60,584 nt of DNA from Oscillospiraceae bacterium. Lineage in GTDB: Bacteria; Bacillota; Clostridia; Oscillospirales; Oscillospiraceae. The notes beneath the pieces are model-generated. The model did no database searches, had not been told where the DNA came from, and was given only the letters and a program-made list of their open reading frames with translations. The stretch is from NCBI GenBank assembly GCA_902775355.1, contig CACYLY010000024.1:1-60584 (forward strand). Reading direction: 5' to 3'. Positions 28,227 to 34,593 of the stretch are shown here, piece by piece (the stretch's first letter is position 1; every line of letters starts with the position of its first letter). Made by a program: the position numbers and the translations under genes.

Positions 28227-29084
28227 TCACTCCGTAAAGTGGATGTGGTTGTTGATGTGGTCCTGGCAGAAGCAGTGATAACCGACGCAGCGGGAGCAGT
28301 AACGGAACTCCAGCTCGGGATTCGACACGTCGGTCCTGCCGCAGACGGCGCATTTGTGCTTATAGAGCTCGTGCCGCTGCTCCCGGCGGATCCGGGCGCT
28401 CTCCCGCCGGAAGTTCACGGTCTGGGCGCTGGGTTTCTGGGGAAGGCGGCGCCAGAGCTCCGCCCCGAAGAAGACCAGATAGTTCAGTGTCGCCACCAGG
28501 GGGAGGAGGTTCACCGGGAAAGCGCTCCAGTTGACCACGATCTGGAACACAAACAGGGCGGCGTTGGCGATGGCCAGCCATTTCATTTTGACGGGGATGA
28601 TCATGAACAGGAGCACCTGGGTGTCCGGGAACAGGGTCGCCACCGCGAAGAACATGGACATATAGAGATAGAAACCGGTGATGCCGCTGCCCGGATTGCC
28701 GCTGATGAGATAGACCAGCAGGCCGAAGACCACCGTGAACAGCCAGCCCAGCAGCACGTAGATGTTGAGGTGGGGCGTGCCCCAGTACTGCTCCAGCAGA
28801 TCACCCATCCAGTAGTAGAAGTAGAAGGCCAGCAGAGCCAGCAGCGAGCGGCCGGAGATGGGGATGAACAGGAAGCTCACCAGACGCCAGAGCTGGCCGT
28901 GGAAGATGGCCTGGGCGTCAAAAGCCATCAGGCTCATCAGCCTGATCTGCACATCCGATTTCAGTACCAGGCACAGGAGCCAGACGATCACATTGCCGCC
29001 CACCAGATAGCGCATCAGATGCGGAATCCCGAAGCGGGGGTGCTGATAAGCGAAGCGCTCGACCAGGCGCATGGGGTCTTTCAT
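28227..29084 (-). CDS. Rhomboid-like membrane protein with C-terminal zinc-binding tail (probably inactive)
   Basis: A 285-residue protein with about six membrane helices in rhomboid order: the L1-like loop HGQLWRLVSFLFIP after helix one, then YYWMGDLLEQYWGT and GNPGSGITGFYLYM. In active rhomboid proteases this last motif is GxSG and a histidine in helix six completes the dyad; here it reads GITG and the helix six region ATLNYLVFFG has asparagine. Both catalytic residues are therefore missing. The C-terminus has CAVCGRTD...FRYCSRCVGYHCFCQDHINNH, a likely zinc site. The ATG at 29084 follows GAAAGGTGATTTC; the longer frame upstream is spurious antisense to rlmB. Possibly a membrane-protein-handling pseudoprotease. 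Confidence 0.75.
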   Translation of the reverse strand: MKDPMRLVERFAYQHPRFGIPHLMRYLVGGNVIVWLLCLVLKSDVQIRLMSLMAFDAQAIFHGQLWRLVSFLFIPISGRSLLALLAFYFYYWMGDLLEQYWGTPHLNIYVLLGWLFTVVFGLLVYLISGNPGSGITGFYLYMSMFFAVATLFPDTQVLLFMIIPVKMKWLAIANAALFVFQIVVNWSAFPVNLLPLVATLNYLVFFGAELWRRLPQKPSAQTVNFRRESARIRREQRHELYKHKCAVCGRTDVSNPELEFRYCSRCVGYHCFCQDHINNHIHFTE

Positions 29085-29255
29085 GAAATCACCTTTCTTT
29101 TCGGCGGTTCGAAGCCGATCGTCTCTTTTTTTGTATTGTACTCTGCCGCCGCGGCAAAGTCTATAAAATTTTGTAAATTTGTAAAGTAATGCTTCCTTTT
29201 TTCTATAAGCTGTGGTATGCTCTATCAGTAAAACTATATCTTGGAGTCGTATGCG

Positions 29256-30011
29256 ATGGAGAAGGAAAACGGGATCCAAAACGAGATCATCGAGGGCCGC
29301 AATGCGGTGATGGAAGCCCTGCGGGCGGGCCGTGCGATCGACAAGCTCTATATCAGCAAGGGCGAGGTGGACAAGACCCTGGGCCACATCGCCTCCACCG
29401 CCCGGGACAAGGGCATCGTGGTGGTGGAATGCGACCGGCGGAAGCTGGACTTCATGAGCCAGACCCACGCCCATCAGGGCGTCATCGCTCTGGCCGCCGT
29501 GCGGGACTACTGCAGCGTGGAGGACCTCTTCGCCATCGCGGCCGAGCGGGGCGAAGCGCCCTTCTTCATCGTCTGTGACGAGATCAGCGACGGGCACAAT
29601 CTGGGCGCCATCATCCGCTCGGCGGAGTGCGCGGGCGCTCACGGCGTCATCATCCCCAAGCGCCGCAGCGCCGGGCTCACCGCCGTGGTGGGCAAGGCCA
29701 GCGCCGGCGCCGCGGAGCACATGGCCGTCGCCCGGGTCCCCAACATCCCCGCCGCCCTCAAGGAGCTGAAGGAGCGGGGCGTCTGGGTCTACGGCACCGC
29801 TGCCGACGGGGCCAGCGATCTGTGGCACACGGACTTCTCCGGTCCCATCGCCCTGGTCATCGGCTCCGAGGGGGACGGGATGGGCCGTCTGGTGCGGGAA
29901 TGCTGCGATTTCATCGTGAGCCTGCCCATGAAGGGGCGGGTCAGCTCCCTGAACGCCAGCGCCGCCGCAGCCATCACCATGTACGAGATTCTCAGACAGC
30001 GCAGCCTGTAA
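29256..30011 (+). CDS. rlmB: 23S rRNA (guanosine-2'-O)-methyltransferase RlmB family
   Basis: A 251-residue SpoU/TrmH-family enzyme that methylates a 23S rRNA guanosine ribose using S-adenosylmethionine. The N-terminal substrate-binding domain begins IIEGRNAVMEALRAGRAIDKLYISKG. The knotted catalytic domain has motif 1 DEISDGHNLGAIIRSAECAG (with the catalytic N and R), motif 2 ALVIGSEGDGMGRLV and motif 3 VSLPMKGRVSSLNASAAAAI. Start at ATG 29256 with GGAG ten bases upstream; TTG 29241 is an alternative. Monocistronic; an inverted repeat follows at 30041. Confidence 0.93.
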   Translation: MEKENGIQNEIIEGRNAVMEALRAGRAIDKLYISKGEVDKTLGHIASTARDKGIVVVECDRRKLDFMSQTHAHQGVIALAAVRDYCSVEDLFAIAAERGEAPFFIVCDEISDGHNLGAIIRSAECAGAHGVIIPKRRSAGLTAVVGKASAGAAEHMAVARVPNIPAALKELKERGVWVYGTAADGASDLWHTDFSGPIALVIGSEGDGMGRLVRECCDFIVSLPMKGRVSSLNASAAAAITMYEILRQRSL

Positions 30012-30144: not shown

Positions 30145-33100
30145 ATGAGTTGCTTGCCAAAAGAAGACGAATCGAAGAAGACGTCCCCGGATTACGACGT
30201 GAGGGATATCCTGGCGGAGTACTGGGACCAGGCCACCGGGGAGGAAGAGAGCGCCCCGGCGGTGCGGCGCAGCGCCTCCCGCGCCTCTCTGGCCGCCGCG
30301 CCGGAGGAGGAGCAGGCAGAGGCCGTGCGGATCTACCGGCCCCGGAAAGAGAAGGCCAAGGAGGGCGCCCGTCTGGCCGCCCGCTGGGGCGAAGCTCCCG
30401 CCGAAAAGCCGGAAGCACCCCGGGATGAGCCGGAGCGGCCCAGCATGGCAGAGCCGGAGCCGGAAGCGGAAGAGCCCGCCGAAGCCGCGGCTCGGGAAAA
30501 GCCCGATTTCCTCCGCAGCGCCAGGGAACTGGCCGCCGGATTCCTGAGTCGGATCCGGGGGGAGAAGGCCGCTGCCCCCGCTCGGGAGCTTCCCAGCTTT
30601 GATGAGCTGGTCTGGGGGAAGAAGGAGGAGCCGGTCCACATCGCGGAAGAGGAAGAGGAATCGCCTCTGCCGCAGCCGGAAAAGCCCCGCCGGGAAAAGG
30701 CGCCGGAGGCGCCCCCCATGGAGAGGACGCCGAAGCTTCCCCGCCGGCAGAAGCCGCAGGACGTGGAGGTCCACATCCCCGAGGAGGAGCTCACCGGTAT
30801 GTCCGTGAATGCCATTTTAGCGGAGTACTGGAGCGGGCTGGAGGATGAGCCTGTGCCGCCGCGGGAGGTCCGCATCGACCCCCGGGAGACCAGCGCCATC
30901 CTGCGCCTGGACGACGATCCCACCCAGCTGGGCCCCCTGCAGGAAGGCCCATCCCCGGAGCGCAGCGCTGTTCAGCCTCCCACGGAGAAGACCCGCCTCT
31001 ACCGGCGGCAGCCCCAGGCGAAGGAGAAGGCTCCCGGCAAGGAGAAGACCCGTCTCTTCCGTCTGCCCTTCGCAGCCCCGGAGAAGGCCTCGGAAGAGCC
31101 CGGCGCCGCGCCGCAGGAGAAGACCCGTCTTTTCAGCCGGCAGCCCCGGACCGAGGAAAAGACGCCCGGTAAGGAAAAGACCCGGATCTTCCGTCTGCCC
31201 TTCACCGCGCCGGAGAAGGAAAGCCTGGCGGAGCCGGAAGCCGCCCCCGCTCCCAAGGCGGAGACCGCGCCGAAGCCGCCCCGGCGGCCCGCCCCCGCCC
31301 CGAAACCGACGGCGGACGACGAAGCCGAGGTTTTGAACCTGTCGGTGGACGATATTTTGTCGGAATTCCGCGCCGGATCTGCCGAGCCGGAGGAGCCGCC
31401 CGCTCCCCCGGCCGGCGCACCACGCTCACGCCGGGAAGCCGCCCGGAGGAGAGAGGAGGAAGCCCCTGTCCCCCCTACCGGCGCGGCCCCCTCGGCCGCA
31501 GATAACAAGTTTGCCTCCCCGCGCCGCGAGAGCCGGCAGGAGGAGAAAAAGCGTCCCGCCCAGCAGACGGATCGAGCCTCCCACCCGGCCCGCAGCGCCG
31601 GCAAAGGCGCGGCGAGACCCGCCCGGCAGGAACGGCGTCCCGCCCGGCGCGAGAGCCGGCGGGAGGAACGCCGCGCCTCCCGGGGGGACAGCAGCGGGCA
31701 GGACCGTTCAGACGCGGATGACCGGAACCGCTGGGAGCGTCCCAACTCTACCGAACCCGTGGAAGAGGAGATCTCCTCTCCCCCGCCGCCCCCGCTGAAG
31801 CCGGAGGAGCCCGCCGCTCTGTTCGGTTTTCTGCGAAAAGATCGAAAAGACAAGCCGGAGCCCGCTCCGGCCGCCCCTCCCGCGCCGCCGAAGAAACGGC
31901 GGGAGGAAGTCCCCCGCACCGCAAGCCCCAGAGAGAAAACAGATGAGGATGTTGAGATCGGCGCCATGTCCGTGGATGAGATTTTAGCTGAGTACAACGA
32001 CATATTTGCCGCGCTGCCCGCCGCCGCGGAGGCCATCGGCGCCGAGCGGGACGCGGAAGCCGCGCGCAAAGCCCGGCCGGCCCGCGCCTCCGAAGAGCCA
32101 GAGGCGCCGGAAGAGCCTCGGTCCGCGCCGCAGCCCGCTCCGACCCCGGCGGAAAAGCCCCGCTCCGACCGAGGCAGAGTCTCCCGCATGGAAGAGGAGG
32201 CTCAGGACTTTCTCCAGCAGATGCGCAGCGAAAGCTTCGGCGCGCACCGGGAAGAGCCCCGGCCCCAGGGCGGCCTGCGCCGCTCCCGGCATGAGGCTCC
32301 GGCGGAGCCCGCCGCTCCCGCGCCCGAGAAAGAGCCGGAGCCGGCCGGGAACGCCCCGGCCCCCATGCCCAGCGTGGCCGACGCTGAGTGGAGCGCCAGT
32401 CTGCGCCGCCTGCTGGGCCAGGATCCCGCGCCTCCCCAGCCTGTGACCGAGCCCTCGAGCCAGGAGGGCGCCGAGCTGCAGCCAAGCCCCCGCCCCGCCA
32501 AGGGAGTCAGCATCCCCTCCGACGTGGTGGATCCCCGCTTCAACCTCAGCGGAGAGCGCCGGACCACCATGGTCTTCGGCGGCAGAGAGCTGGATACCAG
32601 CGCGGACGCGGATTACGTGCCCCCCAAGGCCAGCGACAAGGTGGGCTTCCACTGGGTCGCCGGCGAGGAGGAGCTGCCCGGCAAGCCGCTGCAGAAGCAG
32701 CCGCTGTTCCGCCGGCCCCGGAGGGAGAAGGAAGCTTCTCCCGAGGAGGAGAAAGAACATACCGAGGGCTATGACGACCGGAAAAAGCCGGAATACGCTC
32801 CCGACAAGGATTACGATGAGGACGACGAGGCCGACGATCCCGGCGCCTTCCCCAGCTTCGGGCAGTATCTGTCCGGCCTGATCTTCCGGGGTCTGGTCCG
32901 CCTCTTCGGCGCCAGAAGGACCGGGGCGGACGGCGCCGGTACCATGGAGGATGCCGACGAGGATCTGGGCCCGGAGGTCTCCCCCGCCGCCGCCTCCAAG
33001 TACTACGGTTCCTTCGTCCCCGGCCTGCGCAAGCGGGTCCGGATCGGGCTGATCCTGCTGGCGGTGATGGCCTGGATCACCCTGGGCCTGCCCGTCACCG

Positions 33101-34593
33101 GCGCGCTGCGCACGGTGCAGGTGGCCTCAGGCCTGGTGCTGGCCATGCAGCTGACCATGCTGCTGCTGGGGCTGGACGTGGTCACCGGCGCCGCGGTGAA
33201 TCTGGCCCGGGGCCGCTTCGGCGCGGACTCGCTGGCTGTTCTCTGCTGCGTCCTCACCAGTCTGGACGCGCTGTCCGTTGCCCTGGGCTTCATGGGCGCG
33301 CCCCACATGCCTCTGTGCCTCATCTCCAGCATCTCCCTGCTGGGCGTGATGCTCTCCTCCCTGGCCAGCGCCAGGGGGCTGCGCAAGGCCCTGCGGGTGC
33401 CGGCCATCGGCAAGCGCTGCTACGGCGTCACCGCCGAGGCGGAGGTCAAGGGCAGCGGCCTGACCCTGCTCAAGTCTCTGCGCCCGCCCAAGGGCTTCGT
33501 CCGCCGGGCCGAGGAGTCCGCGCCGGATGAGGACGCGTTCGCCCGCCTGGCCCCGCTGCTGGCTGTGCTGTGCCTGCTCTTTGCCCTTGTGGTGGCGCTG
33601 GCCAAGCACGCCTTTTCCGAGTTCCTGTACATTCTCACGGCGCTGCTCTGCCCCGCCGTGCCTTTAATGGCCCTGCTCTGCTTCGCCCTGCCCTATCTCT
33701 TCGGCTCCCTGCGGATCTTCCACAGCGGCGCCGCCATCGCCGGCTGGTCCGGCATCAGCGACATCGGCAGCAGCGAAAACCTGATCGTCACCGACCGGGA
33801 TCTGTTCCCCGAGGGCAGCGTGGAGATCGACACGGTCCGCATCTTCGCCGAGGTCCAGCCAGAGCTGGTGATCTCCTACGCCGGCACCATGGTCTGCGCC
33901 TCCGGCTCGGACCTGGCCCCCTGCTTCTCCCAGTTGATGGAGAAGAACAACTGCCCCATGCGCCGGGTGGAGGGCTTCGAGTATCTCCCCGGCGGCGGCA
34001 TGAAGGGCGTGATCGATGGCAGCGTGGTCCTCTGCGGCGGTCTGGATCTGATGCGGCTGATGACCGTGCGGGTCCCCTACCGGCTGGTGGGCAAGACCAC
34101 GGTGCTCCTGGCGGTGGACGGCATCCTCTGCGGCATTTTCAACATGAAGTACGAGGGGCAGCCCCAGGTGCGCAAGGCTCTGGTGGGCCTGATCCGCTCC
34201 AACCGCCACCCCATCTTCGCCATACGGGACTTTCTGGTGACGCCCGACATGCTGTCGGACTGCTTTGAGGTCGCCACCGACGGCTATGATTTCCCGCCCT
34301 ACGTGGACCGCTTCGCCATCTCCGAGGCCAAGCCCTCGGCGGACAGCAAGCTGGCCGCGGTGGTCTGCCGGGAAGGTCTGGGCCCCCTGGTCCACATGGC
34401 CGACACCGGACGGAGCATGTACCTGGCCGTGCGCCTGAATCTGCTGATCACGGCGCTGGCCGCGGTACTGGGCGTGTTCACCGTCTTTATCAAGCTCCTC
34501 TCCGCGGGCACCGTGACCATGATCTTCCTGCTGGTGTTCCTGCTGATCTGGGCCCTGCCCGTGCTCCTGATCAGCCTCTTCATGCGGCTGTAA
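30145..34593 (+). CDS. Giant disordered protein with a degenerate P-type-ATPase membrane domain
   Basis: A 1482-residue protein. Residues 1 to about 950 are low-complexity, rich in Pro, Glu, Arg and Ala, with four spaced copies of a short motif: DILAEYW (about 21), AILAEYW (223), DILSEF (403) and EILAEY (612). The C-terminal 530 residues have about eight membrane helices and the order of a P1B-type ATPase: CPAVPL near 1169 for the CPx motif, TDRDLFPEG (1216-1224) at the place of DKTGTLTEG, GGGMKGVIDGSVVLCGG for the nucleotide-binding loop, and VVCREGLGPLVHMADTGRSM for GDGxNDxPAL. All phosphorylation and hinge residues are replaced, so ATP-driven pumping is not expected. Start at ATG 30145 after AGAGG; upstream in-frame ATG 30064 lies inside the inverted repeat. 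Confidence 0.75.
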   Translation: MSCLPKEDESKKTSPDYDVRDILAEYWDQATGEEESAPAVRRSASRASLAAAPEEEQAEAVRIYRPRKEKAKEGARLAARWGEAPAEKPEAPRDEPERPSMAEPEPEAEEPAEAAAREKPDFLRSARELAAGFLSRIRGEKAAAPARELPSFDELVWGKKEEPVHIAEEEEESPLPQPEKPRREKAPEAPPMERTPKLPRRQKPQDVEVHIPEEELTGMSVNAILAEYWSGLEDEPVPPREVRIDPRETSAILRLDDDPTQLGPLQEGPSPERSAVQPPTEKTRLYRRQPQAKEKAPGKEKTRLFRLPFAAPEKASEEPGAAPQEKTRLFSRQPRTEEKTPGKEKTRIFRLPFTAPEKESLAEPEAAPAPKAETAPKPPRRPAPAPKPTADDEAEVLNLSVDDILSEFRAGSAEPEEPPAPPAGAPRSRREAARRREEEAPVPPTGAAPSAADNKFASPRRESRQEEKKRPAQQTDRASHPARSAGKGAARPARQERRPARRESRREERRASRGDSSGQDRSDADDRNRWERPNSTEPVEEEISSPPPPPLKPEEPAALFGFLRKDRKDKPEPAPAAPPAPPKKRREEVPRTASPREKTDEDVEIGAMSVDEILAEYNDIFAALPAAAEAIGAERDAEAARKARPARASEEPEAPEEPRSAPQPAPTPAEKPRSDRGRVSRMEEEAQDFLQQMRSESFGAHREEPRPQGGLRRSRHEAPAEPAAPAPEKEPEPAGNAPAPMPSVADAEWSASLRRLLGQDPAPPQPVTEPSSQEGAELQPSPRPAKGVSIPSDVVDPRFNLSGERRTTMVFGGRELDTSADADYVPPKASDKVGFHWVAGEEELPGKPLQKQPLFRRPRREKEASPEEEKEHTEGYDDRKKPEYAPDKDYDEDDEADDPGAFPSFGQYLSGLIFRGLVRLFGARRTGADGAGTMEDADEDLGPEVSPAAASKYYGSFVPGLRKRVRIGLILLAVMAWITLGLPVTGALRTVQVASGLVLAMQLTMLLLGLDVVTGAAVNLARGRFGADSLAVLCCVLTSLDALSVALGFMGAPHMPLCLISSISLLGVMLSSLASARGLRKALRVPAIGKRCYGVTAEAEVKGSGLTLLKSLRPPKGFVRRAEESAPDEDAFARLAPLLAVLCLLFALVVALAKHAFSEFLYILTALLCPAVPLMALLCFALPYLFGSLRIFHSGAAIAGWSGISDIGSSENLIVTDRDLFPEGSVEIDTVRIFAEVQPELVISYAGTMVCASGSDLAPCFSQLMEKNNCPMRRVEGFEYLPGGGMKGVIDGSVVLCGGLDLMRLMTVRVPYRLVGKTTVLLAVDGILCGIFNMKYEGQPQVRKALVGLIRSNRHPIFAIRDFLVTPDMLSDCFEVATDGYDFPPYVDRFAISEAKPSADSKLAAVVCREGLGPLVHMADTGRSMYLAVRLNLLITALAAVLGVFTVFIKLLSAGTVTMIFLLVFLLIWALPVLLISLFMRL

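Follow-up and report, generated by a model that had tools for sequence, protein, structure and literature searches.

A pseudo-P1B-ATPase with a tag-bearing disordered head, conserved across one bacterial order, as a possible membrane scaffold

The locus and its gene

The stretch of DNA analysed here, which we call the window, comprises 60,584 nucleotides of an Oscillospiraceae bacterium (order Oscillospirales; GenBank assembly GCA_902775355.1, contig CACYLY010000024.1) and comes from a draft assembly of 92 contigs that is 87.5% complete. On its + strand, at 30145..34593, lies a gene of 4.4 kb whose single open frame is intact, as a preliminary description made from the sequence alone had stated, and encodes a protein of 1482 residues: a long, disorder-prone N-terminal head followed by a membrane domain. 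The C-terminal 550 residues are, with near certainty, a P-type ATPase by descent that has become a pseudo-pump, and we refer to the protein as the pseudo-P1B-ATPase. Its nearest named relatives come from uncultured Clostridiales, Oscillospiraceae and, at 59% identity, Candidatus Limivicinus sp. The ATG is found 133 bases 3' of the end of a conserved upstream neighbour, an rlmB-like gene for a SpoU rRNA methyltransferase (29241..30011, +; Pfam SpoU_methylase, E 3.7e-40, and SpoU_sub_bind, E 3.4e-19). A scan of the + strand of the gap between the two genes for promoters and terminators found no site.

The head spans about 908 residues (30145..32868, +). Residues 1-902 consist to 80% of A, E, K, P, R, S, Q, G and D, a disorder-prone composition that bears out the disorder claimed earlier, and the head of a 777-residue homologue (L067) is mostly modelled as disordered by AlphaFold2 (AF2). 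The four spaced, ILAEY-like motifs pointed out in the preliminary description are all present on the + strand: DVRDILAEY at residues 18-26 (30196..30222), SVNAILAEY at 220-228 (30802..30828), SVDDILSEF at 400-408 (31342..31368) and SVDEILAEY at 609-617 (31969..31995). All four were recovered by a motif scan of heads, the last two also by pattern searches of whole genomes. Next to the membrane lies a segment with the core LSGLIFRGLV (32869..32898, +), which is probably helical, judging by its correspondence, drawn through the family alignments, to a helix at residues 204-220 of the L067 model. The pseudo-P1B-ATPase domain itself (32941..34590, +) is predicted from AF2, Foldseek and profile comparisons to hold eight membrane helices together with degenerate A, P and N domains.

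A P1B-type fold without a pump's motifs

A profile of the C-terminal domain, built from 60 aligned relatives, matches CopA 3rfu, which we take to be the Legionella protein, with E 4e-33, plant HMA4 with E 8e-24 and CopA 3j09 with E 8e-21. The AF2 model of the 550-residue domain has a mean predicted local distance difference test score (pLDDT) of 89.8 and a predicted template-modelling score of 0.85; it contains eight long helices that would fit a membrane, and the strands of its P and N domains follow the P-type order. Among solved structures, Foldseek ranks CopA 4bbj first (E 1.5e-17) and 3rfu next, followed by HMA4 and ATP7B. The template-modelling (TM) scores, normalised by query length, are modest (0.41-0.61 among the first 20 matches, with one at 0.33), as is to be expected from absent parts and different conformational states. 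Profile, model and structure search thus agree on the pump-derived P-type fold proposed in the preliminary description.

Protein family libraries do not recognise this descent. The window protein and its C-terminal piece score 22-27 bits against TIGR01525 (26.6 for the window domain; cut-off 346.25), Pfam returns nothing for the full window protein, and among the Pfam matches of 60 members there is no P-type ATPase family. No family cut-off was reached in the libraries tried, probably because the family has diverged too strongly from its ancestor. The few matches that did appear were discarded: an IS4 N-terminal match of the C-terminal piece (E 0.14) lies under its cut-off, and DUF4079 (in two of the 60 members) and CAAD (in one) are weak and unrelated.

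But what is left of the motifs that make a pump? Among 61 members (for L059, which is broken, the open piece alone was used), neither DKTG nor GDGxxD occurs (0/61 each); the loss extends through the whole clade, close homologues included. The phosphorylation motif site of the window reads VTDRDLF (33787..33807, +), confirming that DKTGTLT is altered there, and throughout the genus it is VTDRDLFP or a near variant. Its Asp is kept in 54/61 members, a second Asp two residues on in 48/61, and both, as DxD, in 47/61. The aligned TGD site is IRDFLV in the window (34222..34239, +) and mostly xRDFN in the family, with the Asp in 60/61 and the preceding Gly in none, which agrees with the reported absence of TGD; these three letters occur somewhere in six of the 61 sequences, never at the aligned site. 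At the CPC metal motif site (LLCPAVPL, 33643..33666, +), the Pro is retained in 54/61 and the flanking Cys is lost, an adjacent Cys being found in 1/61. The Gly-rich motif of the N domain (LPGGGMKG, 33985..34008, +) keeps one Gly of GxG in 60/61, and the Gly of the VLCG that follows is found in 61/61. The claim that every catalytic motif is changed therefore went too far: the Asp residues at the DKTGT and TGD sites and the N-domain Gly have been kept, and few columns of the alignment are better conserved than these Gly and Asp positions. With both glycines retained, the domain may still be able to bind a nucleotide.

Also the domain spacing, which had been described as that of a P1B ATPase, is not kept. 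Residues 218-334 of CopA 3rfu (117 residues between the aligned 217 and 335), presumably the A domain, correspond to 40 profile positions, and residues 612-656 (45 residues between the aligned 611 and 657) to 13. What remains of the actuator (A) domain measures 62-76 residues across the family and lies at 33367..33555 (+) in the window by alignment to CopA through the profile. From the Asp of the TGD site to the CREGL segment, we count 44-50 residues in 61/61 members, against 74-80 in six pumps of relatives, where GDGxND lies inside this stretch; the end points of the two measures differ by about three residues, in a seventh pump the count halted early, at the sequence ADVAI, and gave 67, and no value was obtained for two of the nine pumps. 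The actuator domain and the GDGxND stretch are largely deleted. Pairing CREGLGPLVHMAD with GDGxND, as in the preliminary description, is therefore a misalignment; the better partner of CREGLGPLVHMAD is the ADIVLMRSSLEDVITAIDLSRK segment that comes later in HMA4, in a weak third segment of the alignment (2.9-3.5 bits) that is in the correct order, and GDGxND itself is absent. By this weak segment and the distances, VVCREGL of the window (34360..34380, +) aligns with the ADVVLM segment that comes after GDGxND in pumps. The letters TGE[ST] appear in 7/61 members, all of the same genus and, in those displayed, within the A-domain remnant; they are possibly a vestige, possibly chance.

Judged from its sequence, the domain is not a working pump. 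Genuine pumps coexist with it in the genomes of relatives, as seen when ATPases among the weaker matches were checked at 11 loci besides L244, a P1B-like protein discussed below. A frame passing the filter was obtained at 10 of them, L245 having none, and nine of the 10 readable proteins have DKTGT, TGD, GDGxND and TGE; they are ordinary P1B pumps, which rules out these nine as paralogues of the pseudo-pump and makes the motif loss specific to the pseudo-pump family. The tenth, L247 (G041:C10:98500-101500), is a P1B-like ATPase with DKTGT and a GDGxxD motif and without TGE.

Could such a domain act by itself? One option is a ligand sensor that binds a nucleotide or ion through the N-domain Gly and the Asp residues and sends a conformational signal to the head, whose motif couples it to envelope enzymes. 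The near-invariance of exactly these columns speaks for a sensor; against it, GDGxND and the CPC Cys are missing along with the bulk of the A domain, and on balance we regard it as unlikely. A non-energised channel or carrier, in which the membrane half still transports after ATP coupling was lost, would make use of the eight helices, modelled at high confidence, and of the Pro in the CPC helix; however, the Cys pair that binds the metal is gone and the residues next to it vary, so that we find this very improbable. Little credence can be given to a remodelled HAD-type (haloacid dehalogenase) phosphatase that uses DxD as its motif I: the common DxD and the almost invariant Asp of the TGD site would suit such an enzyme, but 14/61 members have no DxD and GDGxxD is absent from all of them.

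Distribution, selection and neighbourhood

Of 117 genomes sampled evenly across the order, the window's own among them, 112 contain the family (E <= 1e-45; 68/71 genera), and the other five have no family match at this threshold. Each genome has one match, with the exception of G416, where two matches lie on separate contigs; they overlap in the profile (8-527 and 360-566), and a second copy may be present there. The head is not conserved in length, and the open frames range from 553 residues (434 in a broken member) to the 1482 of the window protein. In an even class sample of 293 genomes, 14 of the 15 genomes of the order match the near-whole profile with at least 277.7 bits, while the best score outside the order is 136.5 bits and covers the P/N region only (profile 205-477), as for ordinary pumps. 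In a phylum sample of 299 genomes, matches with E <= 1e-45 occur only in the four genomes of the order. Neither sample holds a full-length family match outside the order; the two partly overlap, at most four candidates were scored per genome, and the outside-order totals of 278 (class) and 295 (phylum) assume that unlisted genomes with no match lie outside the order. Within the genomes sampled, the gene is old and belongs to a single order.

Is this gene kept by selection? Estimates of the ratio of non-synonymous to synonymous substitution rates (dN/dS) by the Nei-Gojobori method (NG86) are 0.17-0.51 for the C-terminal domain in 7/7 pairs and 0.35-0.63 for the head in 6/7 pairs, with one undefined; they are rough at such divergence and indicate that the C-terminal domain is under purifying selection and the head less so, in keeping with the earlier impression that the loss of motifs was selected. 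An assembly artefact or a decaying pseudogene, to which the draft state of the genome with its many contigs might point, is a practically negligible explanation: the gene is intact in relatives that are 84-85% identical over the domain, it is present in nearly every genome of the order, and dN/dS is below 1. The one member seen broken, L059 (G081:C38), contains a single in-frame TGA, which could mark a pseudogene or a sequencing error. Fold, family-wide motif loss and retention under constraint together lead us to read the domain as a dead pump.

The rlmB-like gene is a constant neighbour. Across 60 loci (30 from the same genus, out of about 50 strong same-genus matches, and 30 from other families), rlmB is found upstream on the same strand in 59, with L033 as the exception, and in 58 it either overlaps the upstream part of the open frame or lies no more than 210 bases away. 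At L059 the gap is 1109 bases, since the family member is broken there. Among the distant loci, rlmB is present in 29/30 and no other neighbour gene in more than 6/30, counting open reading frames of at least 90 residues with greedy calling.

Two further features of the window lie close by. On the - strand, 28230..29075 encodes a membrane protein with multiple helices, which on visual inspection resembles a rhomboid and has no match in Pfam; a longer open frame at this gene recurs in 24/30 same-genus loci. The G+C content rises from 0.39-0.55 in the first 28 kb of the window to 0.55-0.70 in the remainder, with a sharp shift just upstream of the pseudo-P1B-ATPase locus, possibly the trace of an integrated element.

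A shared tag and its possible meaning

The motifs in the head conform to a tag with the rough consensus [FYM][SDN][LIV][DE]DILxE[FY], which is acidic and probably helical. The window protein holds four copies and some relatives two or three. In its strict form, the motif is found in 24 of 31 heads of the genus (36 copies) and in 5 of 27 heads from elsewhere in the order; in its loose form, in 25/31 and 16/27. This count leaves aside three distant members that offered no head to test. Because each head was delimited by its open frame, some of the counted motifs, in a few genomes, lie before the first ATG. When the residues of the 31 genus heads were shuffled 200 times, the strict motif arose in none and the loose one in 0.06 heads on average.

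Looking for the motif in other proteins of the genome, as proposed in the preliminary description, proved productive. In the window's own genome, the pattern [DE][DE]I[LF]xE[FY] occurs six times, against none for a backward-read control: twice in the window gene, once at the end of signal peptidase II (LspA), once towards the N-terminus of a small protein with one helix, and twice probably by chance. A slightly stricter codon pattern gives 110 occurrences against 4 in the backward control across 61 genomes of the genus, 58 of which contain it. We examined 68 distinct motif places from 70 loci of genus genomes. Thirty are C-termini of LspA, and a further five are similar C-terminal ends with no reference match in reach; 14 are N-termini of NAGPA phosphodiester glycosidases, three are N-termini of VanW/PG_binding_4-like proteins, seven lie in pseudo-ATPase heads, two in proteins with one membrane helix (L205 and L208), and seven look like chance. 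Forty of the places were chosen by hand with most pseudo-ATPase places left out, so that this class is under-counted. The 16 places without a reference match are the five C-terminal ends, two places in the pseudo-ATPase head of L147, L205, L208 and the seven chance-like ones. On examples, Pfam agrees with the assignments (Peptidase_A8, 4e-24 and 2e-38; VanW, 3e-37 and 3e-36; NAGPA, 7e-20 and 2e-12). With an order-wide pattern, inspection of 30 loci gave 19 tag proteins and 11 chance-like cases; the 19 are 13 pseudo-ATPase heads (counting the window and two contig-end fragments), four VanW proteins, one LspA and L238, which is the same as L244.

In the genus, LspA (L115 on contig C32 of the own genome, and the 30 places above) often has a long, disorder-prone C-terminal tail that ends like EFSLDDILAEFK. 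In LspA from other genera of the order, the motif was found within the last 60 residues in 0/29 (matches in 36 of 44 genomes, from which 30 loci were taken and the own genome set aside); their open frames are 159-267 residues long, mostly below 195. One LspA of another genus of the same family, L236, does carry the motif; LspA thus seems to have acquired the tag within this part of the family. N-terminal motifs are carried by NAGPA-type phosphodiester glycosidases (L213, L176, L145, L156, L184, L190, L192 and others) and, in two families of the order, by VanW/PG_binding_4-like proteins (L214-L217, L142, L149, L159, L178). The same linear motif is therefore found on the disordered ends of unrelated membrane proteins.

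What could one tag do on four or more unrelated families of membrane proteins? It might be a turnover or localisation tag, read by a protease adaptor or an insertion factor or marking the pole or septum, with the pseudo-ATPase as one client that has a job of its own. Its position at either end of unrelated proteins and the motif-less members in many families, where the domain must be independent of it, would fit such a tag; the four strict copies of the window protein, and the two or three of some relatives, exceed what a single tag would need, and we consider this rather unlikely. The simplest explanation is a cytosolic receptor. Going by the topology of these families, the tagged ends of LspA, NAGPA and VanW-type proteins should be on the cytosolic side, and we propose that all tagged proteins dock on one common receptor there.

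Tentatively, and with real reservations, we lean towards reading the protein as a catalytically dead P1B-type ATPase that is retained as a membrane scaffold and shares a docking peptide with envelope enzymes. Its eight membrane helices, together with what is left of the P and N domains, would anchor the protein, and the long head would display one to several tag peptides, the same as those on LspA, the phosphodiester glycosidases and VanW-type proteins and on one or more other P-type ATPase-like proteins. With its multiple copies, the pseudo-pump could cluster the receptor and thereby the envelope enzymes at the membrane, and the benefit may be a high local concentration of lipoprotein and wall-processing enzymes. 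A wider version would place the pseudo-pump at the heart of a system, specific to this order, that organises the membrane, with LspA, glycosidases and VanW-type proteins recruited to a cytosolic hub by a convergently acquired tag; this is possible and more doubtful.

Several observations weigh against such a scaffold. Its chief weakness is that the domain is much better conserved than the tag, which, as the counts for distant heads show, is not universal in the family; the order-wide codon pattern occurs 57 times against 13 in the control and is absent from 72 of the 117 genomes. As the tag is loose or absent in many families, the domain probably has its own job, perhaps ligand sensing via the conserved Gly and Asp. 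In the AF2 model of L067, pLDDT is below 50 over most of the 240-residue head, and the motif forms a lone short helix (residues 17-22; block means 51 and 44), so that its modelled confidence is low to middling; the near-membrane helix is better predicted (block pLDDT 73 and 64). The full-length output carries no contacts and is uninformative on docking of the motif to the protein's own domain. The receptor for the tag peptide is hypothetical, and the constant linkage to rlmB finds no place in the scaffold model, raising a second question.

The scaffold would nevertheless matter if true: one cytosolic receptor would gather lipoprotein and wall-processing enzymes, which can be tested with one synthetic peptide (EEFSLDDILAEFK). 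The shared tag on unrelated envelope enzymes suggests a gathering system that has gone unrecognised, and the gene at its centre is conserved through an order, has no full-length match outside it in our samples and is left unnamed by family libraries.

Finally, we would like to place the pseudo-pump among known systems. With P1B ATPases (CopA, PDB 3rfu and 4bbj; TIGR01525) it shares the fold, the order of the eight helices, the sequence of the P and N domains, the Asp at the DKTGT and TGD sites, the N-domain Gly motif and the Pro of CPC. It differs from them in its missing DKTGT, GDGxND and CPC motifs, its reduced A domain, its long disordered head and a score far below the TIGR01525 cut-off. 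Another similar protein is L244 (G367:C9:38500-42500), which is P1B-like and comes from a different genus within the same family, with an N-terminal tag (ESYDLDDILREY) and NKTGT in place of DKTGT; unlike the pseudo-pump, it retains TGD and matches a HAD hydrolase family in Pfam (E 2.2e-12), and its locus is separate from that genome's order-wide family member (C4). From these motifs, L244 is probably a second inactive pump. In the open-access literature that our searches listed, the accessible portions describe no bacterial pseudo-P-type ATPase and, including the review PMC10654040, neither the pseudo-pump family nor the tag motif. The nearest parallels are pseudokinases and bacterial pseudo-receivers, which, in the portions of the sources at hand (PMC7586955, PMC12632262), likewise retain an enzyme fold after the loss of key catalytic residues; here, the fold is that of a P-type ATPase. 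Pseudoenzymes and recruitment by linear motifs are thus kinds already known, and the comparison suggests that the pseudo-pump combines them in a P-type ATPase variant.

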